From Aurantiochytrium sp. KH105 (lineage: Eukaryota; Sar; Bigyra; Thraustochytrida; Thraustochytriidae), in contig BGKB01000210.1 of assembly GCA_003116975.1 (NCBI GenBank), positions 186,001 through 250,000 on the forward strand: a stretch of DNA of 64,000 nt, read 5' to 3'. Below the pieces are notes generated by a model. It did not search any database. It saw only the letters and a program-made list of their open reading frames with translations, and had not been told where the DNA came from. This document shows, one piece after another, positions 35,566 to 55,245 of the stretch (position 1 is its first letter; each line of letters begins with the position of its first letter). A program made the position numbers and the translations under genes.

Positions 35566-38199
35566 ATGAGCACGCCCGTGAGCCCGAGCGGGAGCGACGC
35601 CGGCACCGTGCAGGCGCCGCCCACCGCGAGCGGCGTCAGCGTGCGCAGCGGATTCACCACACGCACGCCTCTGAGCCCCAGCACGCTGCGCAGCCCGCGG
35701 CAGCGACCCAGGACGCAGTCCAGCGCGACGTGGCGTAAGAGCCTCTCCAGCGCCGACGAGGCCCTCGAAAAGGCTCTCAAGAAACCCGCCGCGGCCACCC
35801 CGGAAGAACCTGCACCCGAACCTGACCACGAGGTGCGCATGCTCTCCAGCCACACCGGCCGCTTCGAGGATAGCGAGTTCGACGAGAATGAGAGACTCGA
35901 CAAACACGAAAACCTCTTTTGCGGATTCCTCCGCCGCAGGCCAATCAAGTCCTTTCTCTTTGTGCTCGGCATCACCCTCATGATTGCCGGCGCATGCATG
36001 AAGGCCATTGACCGCGTCGACATCCGCCAGGTCCCAGAGGCTCTGCTCTTTGTTGGCTCTTCCCTGGCCATGGGCATCGTTGCCGATGTCATCACAGAGA
36101 CCTTCGGAGGCCTCCTCACAGCCATGGTCGGCATCGCCGGACGCCGACACAAAGAGGCCGAGTACCAGCTCGCCGTCGCCCACTTTTACTACCGCAGTGT
36201 CATCAGCAAAATCGACGTTCTCATCTGGGACCTTCTCGTCATCATCATGTTCACTAGCTTTGTACCCCGTGCGTCCGACAGCACTGCCATTGTGCCTACT
36301 TGGGAGCAGGCTTATTACTATCTTATTCGCCTCCTTGGTATCTGGGCTATGGTTCTCTTTGCACGCGTCCTTACGCAGCTCTTCCGCATGTACCTGACTC
36401 AGGACTTTGGCGTGCGGTCCTTTTCAACGCGTGTCAAGGACTCGCTCGACCGCGAGATCCTGCTCGCAAAGCTTCGCATGGTCCGCCCCAACCCCAACTT
36501 TCTTAGTCTCGCCAACCGCCTTCGCGTCGTCATGGACGGCGGCTACGGCGACCCTGAACTCTGGCAGGCCGTTGTCCGCCACGTCAACACGCACCACGTC
36601 GATGGCTTCGAACCCACCTCCGGCAAGCACGTGCCCGTCAAGCCCGGACAGGATCCCGGCCTCAGCCGTCGCGCACGCCCCGTTGCAGCTTCCATCTTCT
36701 CACGTCTCATGGAAAGCATCAAAGAACAGCGATACGACTTTCTCCATAGCGACGAGAACCTCGTAGATGGCGAACATAGCGACAGCGACGACGACAATGA
36801 CCCGGCGTCTAGCGAGGACACCGTCGTCAACGCCGAGCGCAAGGCAACCGGCAAGTCTTCCCGTGCCGACGGCGGCATTCGCAACACGGAAAGCTTCCGC
36901 ACCATCCGGAGCGATGAGCCCGCCGAGACGCCCGCTCTCGAGGAAGCCGACGAAGCCGCCAACGATCAAGGCGACGATGATGAGATCGCCAGCGAGTTGA
37001 TGCCTCCTCCTCTGGACTTTAGCGATCCCAACACGCGTGTCGACCTTGACGATCTCCAGGTCCACTTTGACAATGAAGAGAAACATGGCGCCGCCGTTAC
37101 CACAAAAGCACAGTCCCACTTGCGCGAACTCGATGAAGAACCCCCCGTGGAGACCCTGCAGGCCATCCAGGAAGAGTACGCACAGCTTCAGGATAGTGAC
37201 AAGAGCGACTCCAGTCGCCGCCAGCTTCTTTCGCACATGTCTTCCCGTCTTGGCAACAAGGTCTTTTTCAAGGACGAGGTGCTTCAGGCTCTCAAGCAAA
37301 TTGACTCCGCCTACAACTGGGAACATGTCTGGTCTCAGCACTTTGACCCCAAGGGGAGCGGCCTTCTCACCTGGCCTCGTATGCGCACCATGGTCTTGAA
37401 CTTTTACGAGCAACGCTACAACCTGTCGCTCTCGCTTCAGGATTCCAACGCTGCCATCAAAAGCATGGACGTCACCATTCTTTCCATCCTTCTCGTCATC
37501 GTTACGCTCATCAGTCTCACCTTTTTCACGACCGACATTGCTTCCACGCTCACCAGCTTTGCGACCGTTGTCGTCGGCTACTCTTTCATTTTTGGCAACA
37601 GCGCCATGCAGTCCTTCGAGAACATCATCTTTCTCTTTGGTGTGCATCCCTACGATGTCGGTGATACCCTGCTTTTTAACAACAACCGCTATACCGTCAG
37701 TCGCATTCGCCTTCTCACCACGGACTTTGTTCAGGCCGATGGTGCGATGATGCGCCTGCAGAACTCGTACGTGGCCACGCTCGGGCCCATTTTTAACCTC
37801 GACACCTCCCGCAACCATTCTATTGGCTTAGATCTCTACTTCCCGGCCACCGATGTGCGCGAGTCCACGGTCAAGGCCATTCGCAACTCCCTCAACGAGT
37901 TTGTCAAGGCCAACCCTTCCTCTTTCGAAGGTGCATTTTTCACGGCCCGCAACTTTCTTCACCCTCTCGAAGGCAATGGAGAGCTCCCTGGCAAGGGCAC
38001 GCACGCCACCCATGTTCACTTTGTGCTTTGGATCACCTACGCGTACTCTTTCAACGATGCCGGTCGCATTTTTATGGATCAGACCCAGATCATCACGCAC
38101 TTGTCAGAGACGCTCGCTACCCTGGGTCTCAGCAAGCCCATCATCGACGACACACACCACGGCGCGCAACGCTTTGGTACTTCGTCTGGCCAGCAGTAA
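35566..38199 (+). CDS. MscS-like mechanosensitive channel, array copy 1
   Basis: 877 aa, single exon. The layout resembles fungal Msy and plant MSL10-type channels with six transmembrane helices. The N-terminus (1-120) is disordered. TM helices lie at ~126-148, ~160-185, ~215-235 and ~250-275. A cytosolic linker holds the module around ELWQ...HHVDGFEPTSGKH...RRARPVA (~330-380), then an acidic low-complexity part. The EF-hand-like loop DPKGSGLLTWPR is at 594-605. TM5 is at ~630-655 and the pore-lining TM6 at ~660-690 (SFATVVVGYSFIFGNS). The beta domain starts HPYDVGD. Such channels open under membrane tension to release ions and solutes. The EF-hand position 12 is Arg instead of Glu, so calcium binding is doubtful. 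It is the first of five tandem copies and is closest to copy 2 in linker and EF-loop wording. Confidence 0.9.
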   Translation: MSTPVSPSGSDAGTVQAPPTASGVSVRSGFTTRTPLSPSTLRSPRQRPRTQSSATWRKSLSSADEALEKALKKPAAATPEEPAPEPDHEVRMLSSHTGRFEDSEFDENERLDKHENLFCGFLRRRPIKSFLFVLGITLMIAGACMKAIDRVDIRQVPEALLFVGSSLAMGIVADVITETFGGLLTAMVGIAGRRHKEAEYQLAVAHFYYRSVISKIDVLIWDLLVIIMFTSFVPRASDSTAIVPTWEQAYYYLIRLLGIWAMVLFARVLTQLFRMYLTQDFGVRSFSTRVKDSLDREILLAKLRMVRPNPNFLSLANRLRVVMDGGYGDPELWQAVVRHVNTHHVDGFEPTSGKHVPVKPGQDPGLSRRARPVAASIFSRLMESIKEQRYDFLHSDENLVDGEHSDSDDDNDPASSEDTVVNAERKATGKSSRADGGIRNTESFRTIRSDEPAETPALEEADEAANDQGDDDEIASELMPPPLDFSDPNTRVDLDDLQVHFDNEEKHGAAVTTKAQSHLRELDEEPPVETLQAIQEEYAQLQDSDKSDSSRRQLLSHMSSRLGNKVFFKDEVLQALKQIDSAYNWEHVWSQHFDPKGSGLLTWPRMRTMVLNFYEQRYNLSLSLQDSNAAIKSMDVTILSILLVIVTLISLTFFTTDIASTLTSFATVVVGYSFIFGNSAMQSFENIIFLFGVHPYDVGDTLLFNNNRYTVSRIRLLTTDFVQADGAMMRLQNSYVATLGPIFNLDTSRNHSIGLDLYFPATDVRESTVKAIRNSLNEFVKANPSSFEGAFFTARNFLHPLEGNGELPGKGTHATHVHFVLWITYAYSFNDAGRIFMDQTQIITHLSETLATLGLSKPIIDDTHHGAQRFGTSSGQQ

Positions 38200-40200
38200 A
38201 GTTGTCCATTTTTCTTCAAGCCTCTCGTCCTTTGACGTTGTCTGTTCAAGATGGGAGGAGGGAGAGGCAGCTGCGCCAAGCAAATCCAAGAGTTCTCCAC
38301 GAGGAGCTGTTTATGACGACCGTTTTTCCCTCACTTTCTCAACTCTATTATTCGTATCCGCTCCTGTCCTGCACATCATATATTTTTTATTCCAAGAATC
38401 ATCTTTGCCCTTGCTCGGTTTTGGCCTTGTCTCATTTACTTTCATGCACCTGTGCTGCTGCATGCTTCGCTCAACGAGGAGACCATGGCAGTGGTGAATG
38501 CATGCTTGCTTTCTTTCTTTCGAAAGCCTGCCTCAGCCTTGAAGTGAGAAAGAGAGCAAACGAGCCTCCTTCACGTTCTGCGCCTTACTAAACGCTTCCT
38601 TCACCGAATGACGCAACGAACGCCTCGTGCAAACCCATGGCCAGGGTAGATTTCCTCGCTGCTGTTGACGTAACTTCACTTCCAGATGCATCACCAGCTT
38701 ACACACATGCCGTGATTTACGCACGCCTGTTTTGCATTTTCCTCAGGAACAGATCGAGCGAGAATCTCGCGCCCGGGCCGCGGCGATGACGTGGTGCTCG
38801 CCGTAGCTACCGGGCTGTTGCGCTCTTGGCAGCAAATCGCTGTCGTCACTCACCGACCGTTGCGTGCAGGCCTGGTCGGCGCTACTAACAGCGAGCCTGG
38901 AGATTCGTGGAAATCCTGGAACATCGCGCTCGCTCGCTCGCTCGCTCGCTTTGTCAAGAAGCTCCATGACAAGCAGCTGCAGCTGCAGCGGCGGCGACAG
39001 ATCTGGGATCGGCAAATAGACGGCCACGCTGACCCTCAGCCACAAGATGCACACAAACGTCCAATCTCGTGTGCAAACAGCAGCAGCTTTCCAACGCTAG
39101 CGCCAACGTAGACGCGCAATCCATGCCAGCACGGCTGTTTTGCAGTGCGCCAATCCCCTGCTGCATTCTCCTTCGTCGTCCTTTGGCCGCTGCACAATAG
39201 CGCCTTCTTCCCCTCTTGGGAAGCCTCGTGTGTGTTTTCGTCCCCCACGAGTGTCTCTCGCAGATACGTGCAACACGCACCAGACTCAGCCCATTTATCC
39301 GCTTTTATAACTGTATGCTTCTGTGTTTGGTACGGAGTGATGACTTCAGCCTTGGGGGACGCGGGTTTCCCACCGCGCTTGTACTTGTATCAGAGCTCGC
39401 GCGCAGAACCTCTTTTCGCGCGCACAAGAACAGAAATTCCTCGCATGCGATGCGTGCGGGCGGTATCGTGCGCATCTTCATCCTGCAATTCCTGTTCGCC
39501 TTGCGGCCGCCGCTCCGACACCGCCCACCGCGCTCAGCGCAGCGCAGCAAGCAAGCAAGCAAGCACGCTCCGACCCGGCCGGGAGCGCACGCAGCCCCGG
39601 AGAGAGAGAGGGTTTGTTTTTTCGGCGGCCGAAGCGAAGGAAGGACCAGGGTCGCGCGCGGGAGCGGTTGGCTGGCTGCAAGGCACGCAGGCTTTGCCGC
39701 TTCACCTGCGTGCTTTCCAGCACCGGCGCCTCGGGGCTTCCTCCACTCCGCTCCAACCCGAATTATTCCGCGCGGTGGCGGCCACGAACACTCGCCCGCG
39801 ACGCGGCTCGGCAGCGACTTGCATCTGGCTGCACGGCTGCAGAATCCCCTCGCGCTCGGTCGGCCGCGCGCGCGTTTATCTGCGTGGCGCGCACGTCTGT
39901 TGTTTGTTGGCTGGGTTCTTTGCTGGTTGGTTGGTCTGTCTGTCTGTTGTGGCTGCCATTGTTCGCCAAGTGTGCTTGCGTCTGTGCTGCAGCCATTCTC
40001 CGATAGTCTCCAGGAAGCGAAGCGAGAGGAGAAAAAGCGCGCGGCGAGAAAAAGCGCGCAGCGAGCGAGGTCTCGACGGCCGGCAATCAAGAACTGCGCG
40101 CGCCGCAGCCGCCCTCGGCCGCGCCCGAGCAGCGCAGTTGCTGCTGCGCCGCGCCGACGCGGGCCGCGCTGGCCGGGTCTGCGTGCGTAGGCCGCGCGCG
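38200..40200. other. Intergenic between channel copies 1 and 2
   Basis: 3' flank of copy 1 and 5' flank of copy 2. The frame of copy 2 stays open upstream to 39145 with in-frame ATGs at 39340 and 39445, but the residues are Arg/Ser/Ala-rich without a domain. A CTCG repeat lies near 38929-38950. Nothing else was recognised. Confidence 0.5.
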
Positions 40201-43200
40201 ATGGAGGGGCCCTCCACGTACCCGTTGAAGAAGAACAGGGACAGCGGCGACGGCAGCCCAGACGCGACCGGTGATCAGGACGGCGCGGGGCTGTACGCCA
40301 GGGTCGGCGACGTCTCCGCGGAGCCGTGCGAGGAGCAGCAGCTCGACAGCGAGCAGTCCGGGGCGCGCGTGCAGCACGACCCTGACCAGGACGAAAAGCT
40401 TGCAGCGTGGCAGGGCATGCAGCACCTTCAACACCAGCAGGAGGACGACCTGGGAAACGTCCCGTGGAGTGGCGAGGACAACGAACAGCAACAGAGCAGC
40501 TGGAACAACCAGGCGCTCGACAAGGATGAGGCCCAGTTCGCTCAAGAACTTGCGCAACAGCAGCTAGGGATAGAACTTCAGCATCGCCTGGAAAGCCATG
40601 TTGACCAAACTCAACAGCAGAAACATCAAGGTGGTGGTGACCAAGAGGACGCGCAACAGCATGCAACCGTCCCGACCCAAGCACACAACAATGGATACGA
40701 TGAACAAACCGCCGATTATCAATCGAATCAATTCGACACAAGTCAATTCGACTCAGGTCATAGCAATTACAATGACAGCAGCGGTGGAATTCATCTCCTC
40801 AATACGGACGAAGACCAGCAAGACAATCACATTGAGCAACAGCCCAGCACAAATAAAGGCAAAGAGGGCAAAGATGGAAACACTCAAGACGATCACTGTG
40901 ATGGAAAGCAGCAGCAAGAACAAGATGCCAGCGAGGGAGCTCAAGAAAATGAAAAGAGCACTACAAAAGAAGTTCAACCATCGCAACATTCGGAATCGAA
41001 AAAGTTCACCTCATTCTTACCCATGTCGGTGTTCAAATCCAGGGCGCCCGCTGTCTCCTCAATCCAAGAAGGCGTCGCTTCGACGCCAGGTCTCCCCGAG
41101 GAGCAAGTGCATCCAGAAGTTTTGCAACCCAATGATCCAAAACAGGCGGCTGATGCAGAAATGGAAATGCATCTACAGAGCCTTAGCGGGCCCACACAGG
41201 CAGAAGAGCAGGCCAAAGAAACTCTATACGTTGCGGACTCGCACGAGAGCGACGACAAGGGAAAGAACCACTCTGATGAAGATTGGTCCTCGGACTCGGA
41301 GTCCACCGACTCGAACACAACCGCGGGGCCCTTGTGCTTTTGCTTTCGAGGAAGGCGATTCGCGCGTAAACTCCGTCGCTACATCACCCTCCGGCCCGTG
41401 CGCATCGCTATTTTCTCCGTGGGTCTGATTCTTATTGTTGTGGGATCATTTATGAAGGCTTTTAATGTTCTCGACGACCGCTACTTACCTACGGCGCTTT
41501 TATTCACGGGCTGCTCCCTTAGCTCAGGCATTATTGCTGACCTCATTGTTGTCAGCATCTTTTGGCTGCTCTCCAAGCTTGTGCACGTTTCCGAAAACAA
41601 AGAGGTCGAATACTTTGTCACGGCAACAGTCTTTTACCTCGGCAATATCCGCAATGGCCTTATCAATCTCTTGTGGTGTCTTATCATCATCATCATGCTC
41701 GTCTGCTGGGTCCCACGCGACGAAAACGAGACCATTGTTCCGAAATGGTCATCTGCTTATTACCACACGATCCGTATCCTCGCCATCCTCGCGCTCACAA
41801 TTCTCGCGCGAATCATCTCTGTTCTCATGCGCTCGTACCTCGTTCAGGACTTTGGCACTCGCTCGTACCAGGAAAAGGTCAAAGAAACGCTCGGAGAGGA
41901 AATCATTCTTGCAAAGCTGCGCCGCGTCAAACCCGACCCCGTCCTCACAAGTTTGCAGTCGCGCACGCAGCTTGTCATTCGCGAGGGAGGCACCGTTGGT
42001 CCCGAGCTCTGGCAGAATTTGTTGCGTTACGTGAACTCTCACCACGTCGATGGCCTCGAGCCGCGCAATGGCCATCACCAGGCCGTTCAGCCGGGCGTTG
42101 ACAATGGGCTTTCCAAGCGTTCACACCCCGTTGCGATCTCCGTCTTTGCTTGGCTCGTTGCTCGCATCGATGCAATCAAGAAACCCCCAAAGCAACAACG
42201 ACCCAGCAATAGTACCGGACATTCACGCAGCGCATCTTTTCATAGCGCCGGGACCGGAGATAGTCTGGACGATGACAACTTGTACGATCGCGATCTAGAC
42301 AACGCCTGGAATACCAATACATTCGATGAGCGGAGCGCTACGGAATCGCCGCCTGTTGCCTCGCTTTTTGCGCGCTCCGCAAGTCCGCCAATGCCGCCGC
42401 CCTCCTCGACGTCGTCTTCGAACGTGTCAATGCAGTCTCTCGCGAGGCCCAGCCTTGCGAGTACACGGAACGCAGACCGCTCCTCAATGTTTGAGCTTGC
42501 AGAGCCGGCTGTACGATCACGTTCCTCGGGCGAAGTTCCCCGAGCGCGCCGTCGTAAAGGCCCAACCACGTTTGCCGGCGTCATGCGCAGGGCCAAAGCC
42601 GCGCTCGACCCCATTGGGGACAGCCGCGCATCAACACCAAGGAGCATGGACCGTATCGAGCTTTTAGCGCGCAACGAGGCGCTTTCGTATGCGCGGCAAA
42701 AACGAAAAGCCTTTGCCAAGGATAACGGGCAGACGCGCCTCTCTTTGCGGTTCTTGCTCAAGCAGGATGTCTTGCCGATCCTCCAAGAAATCGACTCTGC
42801 ATTTGACTGGGACCACCTTTGGGAAAAGTACTTTGATCCCAAACGCAATGGCTTTGTGACGTGGCACACCTTTAAGGAAGTCATCACTGGCTTTTATGAG
42901 GCGCGCTACAACCTAGCGCTCACGCTGGCGGACTCGCAGGCTGTCCTTAAGAGCATGGATGTCGTCATTATGTCTGTGCTCATGATGCTCGTCATCACCA
43001 TGGGACTTGCACTGTACAGCACAGAGCTCGTCGCAATGCTTGCGAGCATCGGCACGGTCATCGTCGGCTACTCATTCGTCTTTGGAAGCACAGTGGCGTC
43101 GTCCTTTGAGAACATTGTCTTTCTCTTTGGCATTCACCAATATGATGTCGGTGACTCGCTCTACATGAACGGCGACTTTTACACCGTCTTGCGCATTCGC

Positions 43201-43875
43201 TTGCTCACAACTGACTTTTTACAAATGGATGGCAACTTTATTCGGCTCGAAAATCATCAAGTGGCGGCCATGGCCCCGATCTCGAATTTGTCAACTTCGC
43301 GCAACCACGCCGTCCGTCTCGAGACCTTCATCCCGACCGTTGAAGCCACCGAAGCCTTCATTCTAAAGCTCAAGGAGAAGATCAAGACATATGCAGACAA
43401 CAACCCGCATCTCTATGCGTACATCATCGCGCAGGCGCGCGATCTCATGCACCCTATGCGCGCGACCGGCGAAATGGCGGCCTGGGGTACGCACGCCACG
43501 CACACGCGCATCATATTCTGGGTGGAGTTTTCCTTTTCCTTTGAAGATGTTGGTCGCGTATTTGACGCTCAATCTCAATGCGTTGTAAAAATTGGCGACA
43601 TTCTCACGAGCCTTGGTGTCGTAAAACCCCTCTTGGACGGACCCTTAGTGGGTGCATGTCCGAGAGACAGCGACTCTACGGCCCCCAAGGTCGAGCCCCA
43701 CCGCCCGCGCATGGCTCCTTTGACGGGCCCAATCACTGCGAGCAGCTATATGAGTTCTCAACCCGCTGCAGAGGGCCGCGACTCGCCCGTCTTGCAAGCC
43801 CCGATCCCGATGCGCGTGCACTACGACGAGCACCAGGAATTCCCGCCTCGAACGACCACGCCCGCGAACTATTGA
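40201..43875 (+). CDS. MscS-like mechanosensitive channel, array copy 2 (long Gln-rich N-terminus)
   Basis: 1224 aa from the ATG at 40201. Upstream in-frame ATGs at 39340 and 39445 would add 287 or 252 low-complexity residues and are less likely. Residues 1-375 are Gln/Asn/Asp/Glu-rich and disordered, unlike the other copies. TM helices lie at ~399-421, ~434-460, ~485-505 and ~520-546. The linker has ELWQ...HHVDGLEPRNGHH...KRSHPVAISVF. The EF-hand-like loop DPKRNGFVTWHT begins at 879, with Thr at position 12. TM5 and the pore helix (ASIGTVIVGYSFVFGS) lead into the MscS beta domain (HQYDVGDSLYMNGD). The C-terminal tail is proline-rich. Function is as for copy 1, and the long polar N-terminus may mediate assembly or clustering (inference). 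An 18-bp minisatellite follows the stop. Confidence 0.9.
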   Translation: MEGPSTYPLKKNRDSGDGSPDATGDQDGAGLYARVGDVSAEPCEEQQLDSEQSGARVQHDPDQDEKLAAWQGMQHLQHQQEDDLGNVPWSGEDNEQQQSSWNNQALDKDEAQFAQELAQQQLGIELQHRLESHVDQTQQQKHQGGGDQEDAQQHATVPTQAHNNGYDEQTADYQSNQFDTSQFDSGHSNYNDSSGGIHLLNTDEDQQDNHIEQQPSTNKGKEGKDGNTQDDHCDGKQQQEQDASEGAQENEKSTTKEVQPSQHSESKKFTSFLPMSVFKSRAPAVSSIQEGVASTPGLPEEQVHPEVLQPNDPKQAADAEMEMHLQSLSGPTQAEEQAKETLYVADSHESDDKGKNHSDEDWSSDSESTDSNTTAGPLCFCFRGRRFARKLRRYITLRPVRIAIFSVGLILIVVGSFMKAFNVLDDRYLPTALLFTGCSLSSGIIADLIVVSIFWLLSKLVHVSENKEVEYFVTATVFYLGNIRNGLINLLWCLIIIIMLVCWVPRDENETIVPKWSSAYYHTIRILAILALTILARIISVLMRSYLVQDFGTRSYQEKVKETLGEEIILAKLRRVKPDPVLTSLQSRTQLVIREGGTVGPELWQNLLRYVNSHHVDGLEPRNGHHQAVQPGVDNGLSKRSHPVAISVFAWLVARIDAIKKPPKQQRPSNSTGHSRSASFHSAGTGDSLDDDNLYDRDLDNAWNTNTFDERSATESPPVASLFARSASPPMPPPSSTSSSNVSMQSLARPSLASTRNADRSSMFELAEPAVRSRSSGEVPRARRRKGPTTFAGVMRRAKAALDPIGDSRASTPRSMDRIELLARNEALSYARQKRKAFAKDNGQTRLSLRFLLKQDVLPILQEIDSAFDWDHLWEKYFDPKRNGFVTWHTFKEVITGFYEARYNLALTLADSQAVLKSMDVVIMSVLMMLVITMGLALYSTELVAMLASIGTVIVGYSFVFGSTVASSFENIVFLFGIHQYDVGDSLYMNGDFYTVLRIRLLTTDFLQMDGNFIRLENHQVAAMAPISNLSTSRNHAVRLETFIPTVEATEAFILKLKEKIKTYADNNPHLYAYIIAQARDLMHPMRATGEMAAWGTHATHTRIIFWVEFSFSFEDVGRVFDAQSQCVVKIGDILTSLGVVKPLLDGPLVGACPRDSDSTAPKVEPHRPRMAPLTGPITASSYMSSQPAAEGRDSPVLQAPIPMRVHYDEHQEFPPRTTTPANY

Positions 43876-45681
43876 AACATTCTGTCTCTTTCTTACTATC
43901 AACACAGATCTTGGTCCAAATTGCTTGCTTGGTCCAAATTGCTTGCTTGCTCCGAATGGCTTGTTTGCTCCAAATTGCTTGCTTGCTCCAAATTGCTTGC
44001 TTGCTCCAAATTGCTTGCTTGCTCCAAATTGCTTGCTCTATGATCGTGGCGCTTGGCTGGTCCAAGGGAGAGACCCTACTCTACCCTTCGCACTTTTTTT
44101 TCTCCCCCATGTGCGATCTTCTGGCCCTTGACTTTTCGGAAGCCCTCTGGCAGGAGGCTGGCTGCGTTGGCCGGAGGCCGGTCTGATCTGGAAAGCCGGG
44201 CTCGCCGAACGCTTCCCCACCACCGGAGCCGGATGTCGGCCGCCCCGCCGAGACAAGACAAAACAACCCGTCTCACATAGTACCTCCATCGGCCGCCGCC
44301 ACTGACCGAAAAAAAGTCCGAGTTCGTCGTTGTTCTTGACAAAGACCGGCCACAGCTTTTTGCCTGGCACTGGCACCTGCAGCTGTCTGACTGTACCTGC
44401 GTTTCCAGGCGGCAGAGGGTGGCGGCTGCCAAGGAGCTCGCGTCGCTCGCTCACGCGCTCCTAGAAAAGTCTCCTTCGCGCTGGTCAGGGCTCGCGGCAG
44501 GGCGCTTGTCTGCATATGCATCTTCGACTTCGAGCCAACCTGAGCCAATCGATTGGCAGCGCCGTCCGTGTGGTACGTCCGCCACCTCGACCCCGGCCAG
44601 GCCTCGCATCAACCCCAGCCAGAGCAGAGCGTCCACCCGCCCGCCCAAAGAAGCGTCCTCGAAAGCGTCCGTCCTCTCGGCCCGAGCCAGCCACCATGGC
44701 CAGCCGTGCTCTCTTCGCGCCCGCGTGTCGTCTTCATCCTGCGTCCCTCAACTCGCGACCGGCCACCGGCTTTCCCCCCTCGCGGTCGATCTCCTCGTTC
44801 GCCTGGCCGCTGTCTCCGCCGCCGTCGCTGCCAAAGAAGAAGCCACCGCCGGCCCCGAAGAGCCCGAGCGCGTCGCTCTTTCGACGATCGATCGATCGAT
44901 CGATCGATCAATCGATCTCAGATCGATCGTCGTCCCGGTCGAGGTCGATCTCGCGGTCACTTTTCCACCCGGCCTGGCTGGGGGCCTTGTTCGGCCACCC
45001 CTCGAGCCGTTCCCTGCGGTAGGGCCGGGAGCCCTCTGCCACTGCTGCTCTTTTTCTTTCCTCTCCGCTGCCTCGCGGCGAGAAGCGCAAGCTCGACGAA
45101 ACGCGCTGCCTTCCGCAGCCGCCACCTCCTGCGCAGCACGGCACGGCCCTCCCTCCCTCCCTGCCTGCCTGCATGCGGAGCAGGTCAACGGTACCCGCGG
45201 GAGTCCCCATCCCGCACGCGCAGCGCCAGCACAACACTACACAACGCGACCGCGAGGCACGTTTGCTCTTCTCCGCGCGCATCCTCGAGCAGTGGCCGGT
45301 CTTATGAAAGTTGTTGTTCCAGAGCATAAGCGAGTAGGCTATAACTTCCTCGTGGCTGCACGAAGAATGTGCGACGGGGGCAGGTGCTTCGGCAGAGGGA
45401 GGCTGCGATAATGGCGGCGAAACGACTCCGGCTGCGGCTGCGGCGTGCCGAGAAGGGAGGGAGCCTGGGGAGGAGCAGGCATACCGGCATCGCCGCATTT
45501 GCATGGCGGGGGCCGATTGAGACGCTGGCCGAGCGAGAGAGAGCGTCTGACTGGCTGGCTGACTGACTGCCTGCCTGCCTGTCCGGTGAGGTGACCGTGG
45601 CTCTCACAGGCCTCAGGCCAGGCAAGGCAAGGCAAGACGAAGGAGGGGGACGTGGCGTGGACGAGAAAGCAGACCGCGACG
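43876..45681. other. Intergenic between channel copies 2 and 3
   Basis: Apart from the minisatellite it holds a (GATC/ATCG)n tract at ~44884-44930, and CTGCCTGC runs close to copy 3. No gene supported. Frames here are Arg/Ser/Pro-rich and overlap on both strands. Confidence 0.5.
43911..44036. repeat. 18-bp minisatellite, seven units
   Basis: Seven head-to-tail copies of TTGCTCCAAATTGCTTGC, with small changes (G for C in units 1-2, three changes in unit 3). It starts 36 nt after the stop codon of channel copy 2, so it is probably in its 3' UTR. Confidence 0.95.
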
Positions 45682-48666
45682 ATGATGCCGGCAGCCCAGG
45701 TCGCTGCCACAGACGAGGCAGTGCCCATCATTGCAGTGGCAAGAGACGTGACGCCGCCGCCCGCGGGAAGCCAGGCCCGGTCTCAGGAACCAGGTCAGCA
45801 ACAGCCGCAGCAGCAGACGCAAACAATGGGCGGGTTCTCGACGACAAAAGCAGACGCTGGAGGTCCAGGAGCGCACCAACAAGAACACACGGTGCGCATT
45901 CAAAGCGAGGACTCATGGCTCGACATGGAGGACTTTGAAGGGAGCAAACGCGGGCCAAGCACGAGGTGCGGCAAGTTTATTGCCAAAATCCTCGCCTTTA
46001 TCAGGTATCGCAGGTTCAAGGTTGCTCTCTTCTGCATTGGCGTCCTCTGCATCCTTGCGGGAATTCTCTCCTACTATCTCGAGTCTCTCGAGACCCAGTC
46101 CAAATTCTTTTACAGAGCGCTCTACTTCGTTGCGGCTGCGCTCATGTCAGGCATTCTTGCCGACATAATCGTCATGCTCGTTCAGCTAGTCCTCGATTAC
46201 TCGATCGCAAAGGCATCCGCTGCCAACAAAGACCTCGAATACAAGTTCACCTACATTACGTACTACTTTTCCATGGTTCGCAGCTTCACAAGTCGTCTCA
46301 TTTGGACCATCCTTGTCATTATCGCCTTTGCTGTCATCGTGCCTCGCACTGCCGACAACTCCGTATCTCCCTCGTGGGCCATGGCGTACTATCACCTGAG
46401 CCGCCTGCTCGGCATCCTCGCCCTCGTCATTGCCACACGCATCGTCTCCAAGGTGCTCAGGCAATGGCTGGCGCAGGACTTTGGCGCGCGATCCTTTCGC
46501 CCACGTATCCGTGAGTCCCTCGCGCACGAGCACTTTATTGCCGCGCTGCGTGGCTCAGAGGGAACGGCCGTCTTCAAGACGCTCTTCAACAATTCTCGCA
46601 ACATGTCCATGGAGGGCGGTGTTGACCCGGAGATTTGGCAGACTCTCATGCAATACGTCATCTCGCACCATGTTGACGGCTCCGAGCCTCCCTCGGGCAA
46701 GCATGTGGCGCGCAAACATGCCAAGGCCACTTCGGGCCTCGCAAAACGATCAAGACCCATTGCTATCCAAATCTTTGCACGTATCCTTGCCAAACTAGAA
46801 GAGCTCGGACACCTTAGACAAAAGCAAGAACAGGAGCGAGAACAACAAGAGGCAAAGGAAGCGGTTGCGATCTCGGAAGTTGATGATAACGTCAACAACG
46901 CACGCAACCAATCTCCGGCAGAGGGCTCGGACTCAAGTTCCACCGCCAAAGACGGGTCGGGCACCATCACTGCGGCACGGCGTGCGAGCGCCTCGAGCGT
47001 CGCATCTGGCACTGGCACTAGCGCCAGCGCCAATGCCACTTCGCGTCGGCCTTCTTTCACAGCCGAGGGATCCATCTTGGCGGCGTCAAATTCGATGCGC
47101 GGAGACGATAACAACAATAACGCCAACAGCAATGCCAACAGCAATGAGGACGAGGACAATGAGGATGAAGACGAAGACGATGAGGATGACCAGCTTGCAA
47201 TTCTCTCGACTCTTTCCAACAGGCTTTCCGCTTCGAAATCAACAAACAGTATTGGCGACGCCAACGTTGAAGAAGCCAAGGAGGATACGCACGACGCAGC
47301 GTCTCAAGATGCGCGCGACAACATCGATCGCGATCGCATGCCACAGGACGATGACATGATGGGCAATTCACAACTTGCTGAAGGCGTCGAAGGAGATGCT
47401 CAGGCAGCACCAGGCACCCTCGCTCGATCCGGAACGTCGCGGCGTCGCTGGCAGCGCGTGAATCTAGCACGCCAGCAGGGAATGCTGCGACTCAATGGAG
47501 GCAGTAACGGGGGAGAAAATAATAATACTGTTGCGATGAGCGATGCGGAATTGGCCGAAGACACCTTTCGATTGACGAAGATGGTGCGCAAGCTCGCCAA
47601 GGACCTCAATAAAGTCGAACGCGACAGCTCACGACCCAGTCTTGCGGGCCAGACGATGGTTTCGAGTATTAGCTCGACTCGCGTTGGGACGCGCATCATT
47701 CTCGAAGAAGACTTTGTCGATGCCTTTTCGCGCAAAGACGCCAGCGTGCCATGGGATAAATTATGGAAGAAATACCTCGACCCGGAGAATACGGGCTTCA
47801 TTACGTGGCAGCGTTTTCGTAAGCGTCTGCTCGACATGTTCGAGTTCCGGCTCAACTTGGCATTGACTATTCTTGATGCCCAAGCTGTTATCAAGAGTAT
47901 GGATGGTCTCATCATGTCAGGTCTCATTGTTGTGGTCCTTATCATTGGCCTCACCATGTACTCGAGCGACTTTGTCTCGCTGCTGGCAAGCTTGGGTACC
48001 GTGATTGTCGGCTACTCGTTCATTTTCGGCAGCTCAGTGCAGGAGTGCTTTGACAACGTCATCTTCCTCTTTGGGATGCACCCATACGATGTGGGTGACG
48101 TTATCCTTATCGACGATCGGCGCTTCAAGGTCGCTCGCATTCGTCTTTTGACGACGGACTTTGTGCGTAATGATGGCAGCTTCATCCGCCGCTCCAACCG
48201 CACATTACGCGACGTGGTTCTTATCAATCTGTCTACTTCGGAAAAACATTGCCAGGACTTTTCTACCCTGCTGCCTGCTGTCGAGGTCACCGAGCATTTT
48301 ATGCAGCTTTTGCAAGGGGATATCAACAAGTTTGTGGCGCAGCATCTCGACATGTTCGCCTCCATTTCTTCCTTTGTAGTGGAACTCGCGCACCCGCTTG
48401 ATTTGCAGGGTGAGCTCAGCGCGCGCGGTACGCACCCTACGCACGCCCGTGTCCGCTTTTGGGTTTCCTTTGCGTTCACCTTTGAGGAAATCTCGCGCAT
48501 TACTGCAGCGCGCACCACATTTTTGCTTTTCATTGGCGATGCACTGCGTCAGCGCGGCGTCATCAAGCCTCTTGTAATCGATGGTCCGCACGCCCCGCGT
48601 GAACGCGAGGAACCAGTAGCCGCCGTCGAGAGCGTCGCAACAAGCCTGCTGGCCAGCTCCTCGTAA
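45682..48666 (+). CDS. MscS-like mechanosensitive channel, array copy 3
   Basis: 994 aa from the ATG-ATG at 45682. The open frame begins at a GTG at 45652, which is not used. The N-terminus contains EDSWLDMEDFE, echoed in copy 4. TM1 is at ~113-132 (FKVALFCIGVLCILAGIL) and three further helices follow to ~265. The linker carries EIWQTLMQYVISHHVDGSEPPSGKH and RPIAIQIFARIL, then a long Ser/Asn/Asp/Glu-rich disordered part. The EF-hand-like loop DPENTGFITWQR begins at 700. TM5, the pore helix (LASLGTVIVGYSFIFGSS) and the beta domain (HPYDVGDVILIDDRRFKVARIRLLTTDF) follow, then the conserved ARGTHPTHARVRFWVSFAF block. It is very close to copy 4 from the EF loop onward, pointing to a later duplication or gene conversion between these two. 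Confidence 0.92.
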   Translation: MMPAAQVAATDEAVPIIAVARDVTPPPAGSQARSQEPGQQQPQQQTQTMGGFSTTKADAGGPGAHQQEHTVRIQSEDSWLDMEDFEGSKRGPSTRCGKFIAKILAFIRYRRFKVALFCIGVLCILAGILSYYLESLETQSKFFYRALYFVAAALMSGILADIIVMLVQLVLDYSIAKASAANKDLEYKFTYITYYFSMVRSFTSRLIWTILVIIAFAVIVPRTADNSVSPSWAMAYYHLSRLLGILALVIATRIVSKVLRQWLAQDFGARSFRPRIRESLAHEHFIAALRGSEGTAVFKTLFNNSRNMSMEGGVDPEIWQTLMQYVISHHVDGSEPPSGKHVARKHAKATSGLAKRSRPIAIQIFARILAKLEELGHLRQKQEQEREQQEAKEAVAISEVDDNVNNARNQSPAEGSDSSSTAKDGSGTITAARRASASSVASGTGTSASANATSRRPSFTAEGSILAASNSMRGDDNNNNANSNANSNEDEDNEDEDEDDEDDQLAILSTLSNRLSASKSTNSIGDANVEEAKEDTHDAASQDARDNIDRDRMPQDDDMMGNSQLAEGVEGDAQAAPGTLARSGTSRRRWQRVNLARQQGMLRLNGGSNGGENNNTVAMSDAELAEDTFRLTKMVRKLAKDLNKVERDSSRPSLAGQTMVSSISSTRVGTRIILEEDFVDAFSRKDASVPWDKLWKKYLDPENTGFITWQRFRKRLLDMFEFRLNLALTILDAQAVIKSMDGLIMSGLIVVVLIIGLTMYSSDFVSLLASLGTVIVGYSFIFGSSVQECFDNVIFLFGMHPYDVGDVILIDDRRFKVARIRLLTTDFVRNDGSFIRRSNRTLRDVVLINLSTSEKHCQDFSTLLPAVEVTEHFMQLLQGDINKFVAQHLDMFASISSFVVELAHPLDLQGELSARGTHPTHARVRFWVSFAFTFEEISRITAARTTFLLFIGDALRQRGVIKPLVIDGPHAPREREEPVAAVESVATSLLASSS

Positions 48667-49668
48667 CTTTAAAAAAAAAATGAAAGAAGACTTGCATTCA
48701 CCAATCATGGCTTGAAGCCCGTCTTGTTTTCCTTCGTGTGTGCGTGTGCGCGTACGTGTGCGTGTGCGTGTGCGTGTGTGCCTCCTTTCCTTGTTTTGCA
48801 ACACAAGTCGTCGATTGGGTATGAAGTGGCTCTCTGCCACAATCACTTTGCTAGCCACCAGTAGCCTTTCTTCTAATGATCATCATTGACGATCATGAGC
48901 ACAAAATGCGTCGCGTAGCCATCACTTCCTCTCGTTTCCGATCGACATCATCTGAGTTACGATCGACACTCTCATCACTGCCAATGCTCTTGCTATTGTG
49001 TGCTGGAGGATAAATGATTGGCCGGCAGATCCAGCTCTTGCACGCCTCGGGGTTCGGCTTCCGCACCCTGTAAATCTTCTACCGCAGCTGCCAGGAGCTT
49101 GCTCTTTTTTTTGCTCTCTCCTCGGCCAGCCACAACAGCCTCGCCACTCCGTGTCATCAATCTCGCGAACTCCTCGCGAACCCGATTCGCCCTCTCGTGC
49201 CAGCAGCCAGCTGGCTGGCTGTTGTCGGGGCTCTGGGAAGCCGGCTGCCAGGGCTGCTTCCTTTGCTTGTTTGTCGGCCGGTCCTCGATTCATTCCTTCG
49301 CAAATCGAGATCGCAAATCGCGACGTGAATAGAAAAAGCTAGTTTCCGCGAGTCCGAGGCCGAGTCCACATCGTCGCGGTCCGACCGACCGGCCGACTCG
49401 ACGGCAGAGCCCGAAAGGAAAGCAGATCGATCGGCCGCCCGAGCCCAGGCGCGGAGCCCGGGCGCTGCGAGCGGAGACGCGGCAGCGGGCGACGGCGGCG
49501 CAGACGAAAGAGACGCGCGAACTGCAGGCGGACCCCGCTCGCGCCGAGGCGTCGGGCCGATCGGCAATCGCCTTGAAGCGAGGCTCGGCAAGAGGGCCCG
49601 GCTTGGCCTCGACGCGTGGACCACGCACGCGCGCGGAGGAGAAGGCAGTAGCAGCGCGCTCCGACGCG
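48667..49668. other. Intergenic between channel copies 3 and 4
   Basis: A GTGCGT-type repeat lies at ~48737-48780. The rest is mixed sequence becoming GC-rich toward copy 4. The copy 4 frame stays open upstream to 49573 (TTG). No other coding signal. Confidence 0.5.
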
Positions 49669-52476
49669 ATGGCAAGTCCCTCTCGGTCAGACAATGGCGA
49701 GGCGCGGAAAACTCGCGTTGGCTTTGCCGAAGGCCCATGGCGCACGGGGGGCGCGACGAGCCCGAGGACGGCGCCAGCGGCGCCATCCCATCTGGAACCC
49801 ATCGTGCCGACGGAGCATAGCTTGCAGATCTCGGCGCAAGACTCGTGGCTTGGCGATGACGAGCTCGAAAATAGCAGACGCGAGGAACGGCGGCCTCTAG
49901 TGATAAGCAAGGTAGCGGGCTTCTTTTTGCGGCGCAAGTTCAAGTTGGCTCTTTTTATTGTCGGTGTTGGATTTCTACTCGCTGGCATCCTCTCGTATTA
50001 CGTTACAAGCACCGGGGCGCAGTCGAAATACTTTTACAGAGGCATGTACTTTGTGTCGGCCTCGCTCATGGCCGGCATTGTCGCGGACATTAGTATGCTG
50101 TGTCTCGAGAATCTGCTCGAATTCTTTTACTCCAGGACCTCCTCGGACAAGAACCTCGAGTTCACCTTTACTTCGATCACATACTATTTTTCCCTAGTTC
50201 GTAACACTGCATCGCACCTCGTCTGGTGTGTCCTCGTGATTATTGCCTTCACCGTGGCCGTCCCACGACTCGATGGACATACGATTGCTCCCACCTGGGC
50301 TCTGCCTTATTACCACCTGATTCGTGTCTTGGGAATCCTCGCACTTATAATTGCCTCGCGTATTGCCTCCAAGGTGCTCCGTCAATGGTTGGCGCAGGAT
50401 TTTGGGGCGCGGTCGTTCCGGCCTCGCATCGTGGAGTCCTTTGGCCACGAGCACTTCGTCGCGCTGCTTTGTGGCAGCGGCCGGAGCCCAGTCTTTCGGA
50501 CACTTTACAAGAATTCGCGCGCCATGTCTGGCAACGAGGCGTCAAACCCGGAGCTCTGGCAGACCTTTTCTCACTATGTGATATCGCACCATGTGAATGG
50601 TGCCGAGCCCAGCTCGGGCCGTCACACCTTGCGAAAGTTCGGCCAAAGCAGCGCCCTTGCAAGACGTGCGAGGCCAGTTGCGATTCGGATCTTTGCGCGA
50701 ATTCTCTCGAAACTCGACAGACTTTCCCAGGTTCGTGCCGAGCAAAGCAAAATTGACGACGCAGCGCTTGACGTCAAAGAGGATTCTGAATCATCGCGTG
50801 CGGAGAGAGCGGAACAGGAGGAGGTCACCGCGACCGCTTCAGCTCCGCGGGGCCCCTTAGGTGCCGCGTCTTTCGAACTGGCTCCACTGTCATCGAACTC
50901 GCAAGGTGGTACAGCTGAGGATGACGAAGATGACGACGATAGGAGGGACGACGAAACTAAGGAGCGCATGCATTGGCAGCAGCAACGTACAACGGTCCCG
51001 AAGCACCATCCCACGGAGGACGAGCGTGGTGGAGCCTCACCGCGTGCCCAACCGGACGAAATCGGAGGTACTGTTTCCTCGCAAGCCACAAGGGAAGCAA
51101 ACCAAGGAGCCCAGACATTCCCAGCTGTGAGTTCGCGCTGGCGCCACGCCAACCTTTTACGCCAAGGAGGCGCCGCTCGGTTGGTGCGTGCAAAAGACAC
51201 TGTGACCCTCAGTGATGCCGACCTGGCCGAGGACACCAACTTGCTTCTAGATATGATGAAGCGGACATCAAAGAGTGTCGACCCTGGCCTGGTGGCGTCC
51301 GCTGCGCAGAGCGCTGACGCTTTGGCGACTTCTGATGGCGCTGCAGATACCTCGACTTCGGATATCGACCCCTCCCCAAGCCAAAACTTCCTCGGATCAC
51401 TAGGCAAACTCGGACGCGCGCGTTCGCGCGTTGAAATGTCGAGAGATATGCTGGGACAGAGCTCAACGACAATGGCTACACGTATCATTGTCAAGGAGGA
51501 CTTTGTGGATGCTTTTTCACTGGAAAACGCCGACACGAGGGAACAATGGGAAAAAGTCTGGAAAGAATTTCTTGATCCGGAAAACACCGGCTTTATCACA
51601 TGGCAGCGTTTTCGCAAGCAGCTCCTTGACATGTTTGAGTTTCGTTTTAACCTGGCGCTGACCATTTTGGACGCGCAGGCCGTCATTAAGAGCATGGATG
51701 GTCTCATCATGTCGGGGTTGCTCGTCTTTGTCCTCGTCATTGGACTCACCATGTATTCGAGTGACTTCGTCTCACTTCTCGCGAGCTTTGGCACTATGCT
51801 CGTTGGCTACTCCTTCATCTTTGGCAGTTCCGTTCAGGAGAGCTTTGACAACGTCATCTTTCTTTTCGGTGTGCATCCGTATGATGTGGGTGACGTCGTG
51901 CTCATTGATGACCGTCGTTTCAAGGTGGCCCGCATTCGTCTGTTGACGACTGACTTTATGCGCAACGATGGTAGCTTCATTCGTCGCTCAAATCGCACTT
52001 TGCGCGACCTGGCACTCATCAACTTGTCAACGTCCGAAAAACACTGCCAAGATTTCTCCACGCTTCTCCCCGTTGTGGACGTCACGGAGGCTTTTATGCA
52101 GTCGCTGCAAATGAGTCTCAACGAGCTTGTGGCGCAGCGTCCCGATATGTACGTGTCGATCTCGAGTTTCGTCAACAACATTGTTCACCCGCTCGATGCT
52201 TCTGGAGAGCTTAGCGCACGTGGCACACACCCAACGCACTCGCGTATCACCTTTTGGGTTTCTTTTGCTTTTACGCTGGAGGAGATCACGCGCTATTCCG
52301 CGGCACGAACAACGTTTCTACTCTATGTTGGCGCGGCCCTCACGCGTCTTGGCGTTGCCAAGCCGCTCATTGCAGACTCTCCACACGCAACCCACGAAAC
52401 CGGTGACATCGACAGCGACAGCGAGCCGGGGGCTGACGTCAAGGTTGCCGACGACGATGGTCTCGTTCCGAGCTGA
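49669..52476 (+). CDS. MscS-like mechanosensitive channel, array copy 4
   Basis: 935 aa from the ATG at 49669. Domain order is the same as copy 3: N-terminal QDSWLGDDELE, TM1 FKLALFIVGVGFLLAGIL, three more helices, the linker ELWQTFSHYVISHHVNGAEPSSGRH with RPVAIRIFARIL, an acidic disordered part, and the EF-hand-like loop DPENTGFITWQR at 636-647. TM5 with LVFVLVIGLTMYSSDF, the pore helix FGTMLVGYSFIFGSS and the beta domain HPYDVGDVVLIDDRRFKVARIRLLTTDF follow. The Asp of HHVDG is Asn here (HHVNG). The C-terminal tail is acidic. A 13-base string just inside the coding start (49683-49695) recurs just after the stop (52483-52495). Function is presumed to be osmotic/tension-gated release as for the other copies. 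Confidence 0.92.
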   Translation: MASPSRSDNGEARKTRVGFAEGPWRTGGATSPRTAPAAPSHLEPIVPTEHSLQISAQDSWLGDDELENSRREERRPLVISKVAGFFLRRKFKLALFIVGVGFLLAGILSYYVTSTGAQSKYFYRGMYFVSASLMAGIVADISMLCLENLLEFFYSRTSSDKNLEFTFTSITYYFSLVRNTASHLVWCVLVIIAFTVAVPRLDGHTIAPTWALPYYHLIRVLGILALIIASRIASKVLRQWLAQDFGARSFRPRIVESFGHEHFVALLCGSGRSPVFRTLYKNSRAMSGNEASNPELWQTFSHYVISHHVNGAEPSSGRHTLRKFGQSSALARRARPVAIRIFARILSKLDRLSQVRAEQSKIDDAALDVKEDSESSRAERAEQEEVTATASAPRGPLGAASFELAPLSSNSQGGTAEDDEDDDDRRDDETKERMHWQQQRTTVPKHHPTEDERGGASPRAQPDEIGGTVSSQATREANQGAQTFPAVSSRWRHANLLRQGGAARLVRAKDTVTLSDADLAEDTNLLLDMMKRTSKSVDPGLVASAAQSADALATSDGAADTSTSDIDPSPSQNFLGSLGKLGRARSRVEMSRDMLGQSSTTMATRIIVKEDFVDAFSLENADTREQWEKVWKEFLDPENTGFITWQRFRKQLLDMFEFRFNLALTILDAQAVIKSMDGLIMSGLLVFVLVIGLTMYSSDFVSLLASFGTMLVGYSFIFGSSVQESFDNVIFLFGVHPYDVGDVVLIDDRRFKVARIRLLTTDFMRNDGSFIRRSNRTLRDLALINLSTSEKHCQDFSTLLPVVDVTEAFMQSLQMSLNELVAQRPDMYVSISSFVNNIVHPLDASGELSARGTHPTHSRITFWVSFAFTLEEITRYSAARTTFLLYVGAALTRLGVAKPLIADSPHATHETGDIDSDSEPGADVKVADDDGLVPS

Positions 52477-53320
52477 TTGCTGTCGGTCAGACAATATGCT
52501 CGAATGCGTTTACTTTAGGGCAATATGAAAACAAAAGCAAGCAAAAGTCACCTCTGTTTCTTTGTCTTCCTCCTGGTAAATGTCATCGCTCTATTTAAAA
52601 TTGATGACGCGAAAGCGGCAAAACAAGCTCGTTCTTATCGCACCCTGCCGCAGTCTCAACCACAGCCATGGTCCCAGCCCCGCACCCTAGCCAGTAAATC
52701 AGCCAACCAAGCCAAGTTGGCCAAGCGTATAGGCAGACAAACAGCCAGGCATTCACATGAGGCAGTCAGGGTGCACCGGCCCACGCCCTTCCCCGCAGCC
52801 AGGGCCGTCTTCGCGCGCTCCCGCAGCCTGGTCCAGAGTCGGTGCTCACTAACAATAAGGAAAATATTGTGTGGCCCACAGCGAAAGAGAGAGAGAGAGA
52901 GAGAGGAAAGAAACAGAGCGCTGACAAGCGGTGTCCCAGCGTCCGTGTCCTCGGGCTACCTCTGCTGCCATCACGCCTGCGTACCACGCACTCCCTCGCC
53001 TCGCGCCTCCGGCCGCAGCGCTGCCGCTGCATTCCGCAGGTGTCCACCGCGCTCGCTTCGTCCTGGCCGCACTCGTGGCGTGAAGGGTGGGCCAGCCGCA
53101 GCAACCTGGACCGTCCGAGTCGAGAAGAGCGAAGAGACGCAAAAGGGCGCCGACAGCTCCGTAACAAGCAAGCAACGTGGCTGGTGAGAGAAGGTGCAGC
53201 GGCCAAATACTAGTAATTAAGCAAGCAAGCGAGCAACTCCGACCGAATGAAAAAGGCGGGAGTGAAGGTAGCAGGCGCCGCAAAGGCGGTAGAGGCAGCG
53301 CGCGGAGGACGGGGGGGGGC
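52477..53320. other. Intergenic before the degraded fifth channel copy
   Basis: This is where the N-terminal transmembrane half of copy 5 would be expected, but no helix-like homologous sequence was seen. A frame from the ATG at 52525 (220 codons) has a hydrophobic start (FFVFLLVNVIALF) but then becomes Arg/Ser-rich and overlaps other open frames, so it was not called. A (GAGA)n tract lies near 52887-52906. Confidence 0.45.
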
Positions 53321-55054
53321 ATGCTGGAACCAGACACCGAGGTTGGCCCTTCCTTGTGGCAATCACTTCAACAATACACGAACCTTAAGCATGTTGATGG
53401 CAGCGACATTTGTAACGCCAAGAGCGACTCGTTTCAACAAACGCAGAAGACCGCGCTAATGAAGCGTGCGCGACCTATGGCAATCCAAACCTTTGCACGA
53501 ATTCTTTTGAAGATTGACGAAATTCATCGGTAACGCTTGATTACGGATCTGTCGTCCATCGCTGCTACAGCGTGCCTTCCTGAGATCGTAGCACCTCTAG
53601 GTGCCAATAGAGAGGAAGCAGAAGCTGACAGCACAATGGTTGGCTCCCCCGACTTTTGTGTATCTCCACAGCACATGCCAAGACCGCCTCCGAGTACTCC
53701 ATTTACGAGTCGCAGAGATATTGTGGGTTCATCGGCTCTCGACGCGATTCCTGAGACGGGTGCCATGGAAGACCTGCGTCGCTCTCAATAAGCTCACGAG
53801 AAAGTAACACCCCTGATTGATGCACATTTGGGCCGAATTGAAATGGACAAACTGCATCAAGAAACTCATCAATCGAAAAAAGGGCTTGAGCGGCAGAGAA
53901 GCATTTCACGTCTCGGCGCAAGTCAGGCTCGCCTCAAGGATCAAAGTCTTGCGGAGGACACTAAAATGCTGGACTCAATCATGCTCACGCGCGGGCAGGG
54001 CTCCCGGGAAGAAAAAAAAATCTTCCGGTTTCTCAATGTTGGCCGAAGATCATCAAGTAGCTCTTCGGATACAAGCAGAGATTCTTCAGCTGGCTCAAAT
54101 ATGTTTGCGCAGACTGCGGAATCTCGCGTCGTGACGCGCCAAGACTTTCTTGACGCCTTTGCAGGAAACGCGGCGACCGCAGCAGAACTCTCTTTGTGGG
54201 AGGACCTCTGGGACACTCATCTCGACTCGGAAAGATCGAACGTCATGACGTGGCAGCGTTTCCGGGCGCGTGTTCTTCACATGTTTGAGTATCGTCAAAA
54301 TTTGGCATCGACGATTCTCGACACTCAGGCCGTTGTTCAGAGCTTAGATAGTCTTATCATGGCTGGCCTTATGGCCTTTGTCGGCTTGTTCGCGGTGGCA
54401 ATGTTTTCCACGTCCGAGAATCAGCTGACAAATGTTGCCGCATTCGCATCAACAATTGCTGGCTTCTCGTTTGTCTTTGGTGGCTCGATGGGTGAAAGTT
54501 TTGGAAACGCCATTTTTCTCTTCTCGATGCACCCATACGACGTGGGCGACGTTCTGCTCTTGGGTGGGCAACGTCTTACGGTGAAGCGAATTCAGCTCTT
54601 CACCACAGACTTGATCACCATTGACGGTTTTCACTATCGCAAGCCCAACAGTATCATGCGGACAGAAACCTTTACAAATCTTTCCACGTCAGATCACAAC
54701 TCGAACGATTTCGTCACCCTCGTTCCCGCGTCCGAAATCACGGCAGACTTTGTGCAGAACCTGCACGCCAAACTTTACAAGTGTGTGGAAATGAACCCCG
54801 ATATGTACAAGGACGTTGACATTTTCTTGACGGATGTGCTTCATCCCGGACGACTCCAGGGAGAGCTTAGTGCGAGAGGCACGCATTCAACGCACGTCGA
54901 GGTTCATTTTTGGATCGACTATGCCTTTGAATTTGTGGCCATCGACCGTCTCCTCGTCGCGCGCACCGCCTTTATCTGTTTTCTCAGCGATGTTCTCCGT
55001 GAGGAGGGCATTGCCAAGTCCCTAGTAGTCGAACGCGAACGAGATATGACGTAA
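53321..55054 (+). pseudogene. MscS-like channel, array copy 5: 5'-truncated with two in-frame stops
   Basis: The frame starting at 53321 enters directly at the cytosolic linker (SLWQSLQQYTNLKHVDGSD, then RARPMAIQTFARILLKIDE), so TM1-4 are missing. The same frame then meets TAA at 53531-53533 and again at 53789-53791, with coding-like sequence between and after. From 53843 (ATG) a clean frame of 403 aa continues through the degenerate EF-like loop (DSERSNVMTWQR), TM5, the pore helix (FASTIAGFSFVFGGS), the full MscS beta domain (HPYDVGDVLLLGG) and the conserved ARGTHSTHVEVHFW end. I see no splice pair that removes the stops while keeping frame. It is either a decaying pseudogene or a gene now expressed only as a pore-domain fragment from 53843. 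Confidence 0.75.
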
Positions 55055-55069
55055 TGCTAATTTGTCTGT

Positions 55070-55245
55070 TTTGCTAGCTGGCTGGCTTGCTTCCTTGTTT
55101 CCTTGCTTTGCTTGCTGGCTGGCTGCTTGGCTGGCTGGCTGGCTGGCTGGCTGGCTTGCTTCGCTGCTTGTTGGCTAGCTGGCTGGCTGGCTGGCTTGCT
55201 TGCTTGCTTGCTCGCTTGCTGGTTGGCTTGCTTGCTCATTTGCCT
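55070..55245. repeat. GGCT/GCTT low-complexity tract
   Basis: About 175 bases of CTGG and CTTG tetranucleotides directly after the fifth channel copy. Confidence 0.9.

Follow-up and report, generated by a model that had tools for sequence, protein, structure and literature searches.

A tandem array of MSL10/Flycatcher1-type channel genes in the thraustochytrid Aurantiochytrium sp. KH105, with a fifth copy that looks broken differently on its two haplotypes

The plant channels Arabidopsis MSL10 and Venus flytrap Flycatcher1 are heptamers in which the sixth transmembrane helix (TM6) lines the pore, a ring of phenylalanines forms the gate, membrane tension opens it and the linker between TM4 and TM5 contributes to gating (PMC8844309, PMC10560256; these papers and those below are cited from excerpts of their text). 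The fission yeast proteins Msy1/Msy2 and the Aspergillus proteins MscA/MscB are grouped closer to plant MSL9/10 and FLYC1, with bacterial and organellar forms more distant (PMC9367656). Here, we describe a locus of Aurantiochytrium sp. KH105 in which five MscS-type loci follow one another, all on the + strand, at positions 35566-55054 of the 64,000-nucleotide stretch that we analysed (the window). The window comes from contig C210, one of 367 contigs in an assembly of 76 Mb, which was also the scope of our searches of the organism's own genome. We are fairly confident that the locus is an old tandem array of MSL10/Flycatcher1-type channel genes, of which genes 1-4 work and copy 5 has been broken differently on each haplotype (Table 1).

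Tandem duplication of MSL genes and expansion of MscS families in microbial eukaryotes are already known. Arabidopsis MSL7/MSL8 (AtMSL7/AtMSL8) also arose by tandem duplication (PMC10552396), but they form a pair rather than a cluster of four to five genes and belong to another lineage. The MscS family of microsporidia is likewise expanded, with at least five copies per genome (PMC3879972); these organisms are parasites, the likeness is one of description, and the word "tandem" occurs 0 times in the main text of that paper. The present cluster is larger and lies in a different lineage. Among the matches listed in a search of the non-subscription literature, no title or abstract opening concerned thraustochytrid MscS genes or a five-gene MscS array. 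The kind of channel is thus known, and it is the old, diverged cluster that is modestly unusual.

Hydropathy profiles of genes 1-4 show four segments near the N-terminus, which an extended hydrophilic region separates from TM5 and TM6. A preliminary description, made from the letters of the window, had assigned one architecture to all five loci; this holds for genes 1-4, with their four N-terminal helices, long TM4-TM5 linker and TM5/TM6 pair, but not for copy 5, which lacks TM1-4. Genes 1-4, with starts placed at ATGs common to both haplotypes, each form one single open frame, as does a dispersed paralogue found on contigs C30 and C87. TM1 begins at residue 130, 400, 112 and 91 in genes 1, 2, 3 and 4, respectively, so the very different N-termini first put at ~110 to ~390 residues are nearly right and are corrected to ~129, 399, 111 and 90 residues. 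Fission yeast Msy1/Msy2 and Aspergillus MscA/MscB are also large, at 840-1011 aa, and their tails likewise vary in length (PMC9367656).

Four of the five array members exceed the curated PF00924 cut-off of 20.2 bits (21.9, 21.2, 21.6 and 31.7 bits for genes 1, 3, 4 and copy 5). Gene 2 has no match to PF00924 or any other Pfam family at E 0.1 and was placed by its homology to MSL10. Among solved structures, MSL10 ranks first and Flycatcher1 next for all six paralogues (the array members and the dispersed gene) when searched singly, and the same ranking holds for the A1 profile (4.6e-34 over two stretches). Two other MscS loci of the genome served as contrast, with loci C26 and C44 left out of these searches: bacterial MscS ranks first for C7, and C111 gives weak matches, the best to MscM (0.0015). 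A predicted model of gene 4, itself weak, aligns with MSL10 from before TM1 through the C-terminus and has MSL10 and Flycatcher1 as its best structure matches; Foldseek also returned unrelated enzymes for it, ranked below the MscS rows. The gate residues of MSL10 are V549, F553 and G556 (PMC10560256). Their equivalents are Val, Phe and Gly in five of the six paralogues, and Ala, Phe and Gly in copy 5. The likeness to MSL10 and Flycatcher1 therefore covers the six-TM layout, the long TM4-TM5 linker, the Val/Phe/Gly pattern in TM6 and the MscS C-terminal domain, a layout that copy 5 fails. The differences are the low identity (23-31% over a 168-residue MSL10 stretch), the protist setting, the tandem arrangement and the long low-complexity tails. 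Judged by sequence, genes 1-4 are six-TM MscS-superfamily proteins of the MSL10/Flycatcher1 type.

Most MscS loci in the assembly occur as near-identical pairs, which we take as two haplotypes. Positions 60001-92262 of contig C206, the latter being the contig end, align to window positions 22082-53319, and from ~55155 the window finds a match again in a further contig, C226 (reverse strand). On C206, genes 1-4 lie at 73423-76053, 78018-81692, 83641-86646 and 87720-90524, in the same order, on the same strand and with similar spacing. The head-to-tail array of one MscS subfamily is thereby borne out. As these genes are collinear on a separately assembled contig, a false join is argued against, and the concern raised earlier that unrelated contigs had been joined is answered for genes 1-4. 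An assembly artefact, in the array or at the copy 5 junction, would fit two observations, as C206 breaks off within copy 5 at a high-copy repeat and the window junction lies in a G-run, yet the window contig itself runs through copy 5 into C226-matching sequence. We regard such an artefact as highly improbable, and doubt about the joins is confined to the copy 5 junctions. The array holds no hidden sixth member in the window: with the six paralogue proteins as tblastn queries against the whole window (E 0.01), 0 of 51 matches fell outside the five loci.

Genes 1-4 are under purifying selection. The ratio of nonsynonymous to synonymous substitution rates (dN/dS) between the haplotypes is 0.047, 0.157, 0.104 and 0.117 for genes 1, 2, 3 and 4, and 0.075 for the dispersed paralogue. 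Coding sequence is 96.0-97.9% identical between the haplotypes, versus 81.9-84.5% for four intergenic blocks, each scored on its main alignment. The low dN/dS and the excess of coding over intergenic identity indicate that genes 1-4 are maintained as proteins. The haplotypes themselves diverge strongly (dS ~0.08-0.11, and 15-18% between genes), which is very high for two alleles within a single organism; this organism may have a hybrid or long-asexual past. An 18-nucleotide tandem repeat lies at window positions 43892-44053, directly after gene 2, and the haplotype alignment splits there.

A Pfam search of the genome gave 17 MscS matches: four dispersed loci, the C30/C87 paralogue and genes 1, 3 and 4, each on both haplotypes, and copy 5 once. 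With gene 2 added from the protein search, again on both haplotypes, the genome has at least 10 MscS-type loci, five of them in the array. According to a study of diatoms, each of the stramenopiles examined there has at least two MscS channels, and the Naviculaceae have as many as 18 (PMC11085791). The total number is therefore not unusual, whereas the clustering may be: this one protist genome holds five intact MSL10-type genes, four of them within one 17 kb block. Relatives in prokaryotes and viruses were absent under the settings used, as none of the 110 and 48 pattern matches to the A1 profile (in genomes and viral contigs, respectively) was confirmed by tblastn at E 1e-3.

Of the third codon positions, 54% differ between genes 3 and 4. 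Within the pore half, these two genes are 76% identical to each other and 58-61% identical to the dispersed paralogue. Identity to every other member falls to 35-43% for genes 1 and 2, and that of copy 5 to the rest is 35-47%. In the tree, the dispersed paralogue is sister to genes 3+4+5 (whole group 94/100; genes 3+4+5 82/83) and copy 5 stands beside gene 3 (95/94) on a branch of 1.65 changes per column; copy 5 and the outgroup MSL10 both sit on long branches and where they fall is unsure, and only four of the nine inner branches carry the tree program's star. As genes 1 and 2 are so distant from the other copies, most of the duplications look old, and as a close relative sits on C30 and C87, the family is partly dispersed. 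The array most plausibly represents a set of old tandem copies, with one later duplication (genes 3 and 4) and one member that moved or was left elsewhere. The preliminary description had taken the local expansion as a sign of selection on osmotic or tension responses, which finds no support as worded, given the divergence of genes 1 and 2 and the paralogue outside the array. This idea would amount to a recent adaptive burst, in which the five genes make hetero-heptamers with different tails for the osmotic response. Tails of ~90 to 399 residues on a conserved pore and the closeness of genes 3 and 4 would suit such a burst, but genes 1 and 2 are deeply diverged, a dispersed sixth paralogue falls within the clade and the haplotype dN/dS values are far under 1. 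We consider it quite unlikely.

For the old array of working genes, the plant channels suggest a mechanism. By analogy with them, the products of genes 1-4 would sit in a membrane and act as tension-gated channels. Each would form a heptamer, with a kinked TM6 lining the pore and a hydrophobic gate consisting of the Phe ring, a Val one turn above it and a hinge-side Gly. Membrane tension acting on TM1-5 would open this gate, and tuning or localisation of the channel would fall to the long linker between TM4 and TM5 and to the N-terminal tail, which varies among the genes. The likely role would be the release of ions upon hypo-osmotic swelling, or signalling from such swelling. The different tails could target or modulate the channels, and hetero-oligomers are possible. 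The array may thus offer a compact natural set for asking how variable tails and linkers affect tension gating.

An EF-hand-like loop had been noted before TM5. Its outline stands, but the canonical Ca2+ ligands are absent from all six paralogues. The canonical EF-hand Ca2+-binding loop pattern is matched by none of 11 sequences (six paralogues, five of them from both haplotypes), with loop positions 3 and 12 failing the canonical ligands in every paralogue. Msy1 and Msy2 contain a Ca2+-binding EF-hand; the loop described here differs from theirs in lacking those ligands, and the likeness between them is one of description, not of sequence comparison. The loop region does align with a stretch of MSL10, with a T-G-x-I-T core common to both. 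As the canonical ligands are missing throughout, direct sensing of Ca2+ by this loop appears unlikely.

Copy 5, which the preliminary description had rightly called degraded, has lesions on both haplotypes as assembled. In the window, it lacks TM1-4 and has two in-frame TAA codons. Its linker sequence starts directly after the G-run in which homology to C206 ends (53319); in tblastn, five non-self paralogue queries match it within 53342-53530, that is, up to the first TAA, and the frame is open from 53792 to the stop at 55052-55054. On C206, the shared flank is followed by a 77-codon open, gene-5-like start, which includes the beginning of TM1 and is absent from the window. This start shares the EDSWL motif with gene 3 and with the dispersed paralogue, and its alignment scores to these two (68 and 65) beat all of 200 shuffles each (maxima 55 and 50). 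Early in TM1 it is interrupted by a high-copy repeat (~C206:92040-92262), within which C206 ends. Among the best 40 of 68 candidates, the repeat has 39 other places in the genome, and its 98-100% identity at 37 of these 39 suggests a recently active mobile element. C226 starts with ~2.9 kb of a different repeat family (C226:75660-78561) before rejoining the window 3' of copy 5. That family has 56 other matching stretches in the genome, at 66-93% identity; the C226 repeat contains open reading frames (ORFs), one of 311 codons and one of no fewer than 546, neither with a Pfam match at E 0.1. Domain, DNA and protein searches (best candidates) found no second pore half of copy 5 elsewhere in the genome, although the gap between C206 and C226 could hide one.

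Divergence of the copy 5 pore half from gene 3 is 0.36 at first, 0.28 at second and 0.62 at third codon positions. In neutral simulations at the full copy 5/gene 3 divergence, 0 of 500 runs remained free of stops (mean 7.7 stops), and at a quarter of that divergence 11% of 500 runs did. The coding-like divergence and the simulations together point to a mostly coding history with fast evolution and a late breakage that differed between the haplotypes. As we infer the order of events, copy 5 was a fast-evolving coding member of the gene 3/4 branch, probably coding for most of its history and only lately broken: the window haplotype would have lost the start and TM1-4 and gained two stops, and the other would have received a repeat in TM1. 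Copy 5 thus looks like a dying channel gene in which the two haplotypes bear different lesions; the remainder of the locus is ordinary gene-family biology. Rescue of the window copy by an intron was considered and appears unlikely: a donor-like GTAACG lies at the first stop, but inspection by eye of this donor and a few acceptors, which was not systematic, revealed no convincing in-frame pair.

The same pore half could instead be alive, with the ATG at 53843 as its translation start and a minimal, two-TM MscS subunit as its product, which would make a channel of its own or join gene 3/4 heptamers. Its 403 open codons keep TM5, TM6, the gate Phe and the hinge Gly, and both its coding-like divergence and the lack of stop-free runs at full divergence would be expected of a living gene. 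There is also a precedent, as the miniature Trypanosoma cruzi channel TcMscS is functional; it resembles the copy 5 remnant in its minimal MscS fold and in having two membrane helices, both short (PMC12334622). However, TcMscS is an intact working gene, whereas copy 5 is the leftover of a six-TM gene: the window copy lacks the original start and carries two in-frame stops upstream of the open frame, the copy 5 branch is long and no allele was found on the partner haplotype. The coding pattern may moreover predate the damage, as a neutral quarter of the divergence would leave the frame open in the above 11% of runs. A living copy 5 is therefore unlikely in our view. We give still less credence, and regard as very unlikely, that the array consists of MSL10-type subunits with interchangeable tails, among which copy 5 has shrunk from six TMs to two, leaving a pore-only subunit; if so, this would be a natural conversion, polymorphic at present, of a large MscS channel to a TcMscS-like miniature.

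Table 1. Features of the MscS-type array, in window positions.
Feature	Position	Strand	Description
Gene 1	35566..38199	+	Intact, 877 aa, six TM, MscS/MSL10-type; single open frame; PF00924 1.9e-4; MSL10 1.4e-18
Gene 2	40201..43875	+	Intact, 1224 aa, ~399-residue tail before TM1; MSL10 8.9e-23 (phmmer)
Gene 3	45682..48666	+	Intact, 994 aa; PF00924 3.2e-4; MSL10 2.3e-19
Gene 4	49669..52476	+	Intact, 935 aa; 76% identity with gene 3 in pore half
Haplotype parting point	53319..53320		C206 homology stops at 53319 in G-run and copy 5 sequence starts; presumed deletion of start and TM1-4
Copy 5 remnant, TM4-TM5 linker	53320..53842	+	In-frame TAA at 53531-53533 and 53789-53791
Copy 5 open pore half	53843..55054	+	TM5, TM6, C-terminal domain, 403 aa; PF00924 1.7e-7 (slightly longer frame); MSL10 5.7e-16
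TTGC/GGCT simple-repeat tract (4-nucleotide)	55060..55250		3' of copy 5; tract recurs at dozens of genome places

Elsewhere in the genome, a Pfa-type polyunsaturated fatty acid synthase is represented by paired pieces, which is no more than suggestive of a thraustochytrid. The best piece reaches 930 bits, none exceeds the cut-off of 1010, and the same model gives matches below the cut-off in 11 of 14 control genomes and above it in none. Further downstream in the window, a 765-codon ORF on the - strand (59950-62247) has no Pfam match at E 0.1. The nearer downstream neighbours of the array are a RhoGEF-domain protein at 56166-57944 (1.6e-25) and a Sulfotransfer_2-like protein at 58278-59918 (6e-5).

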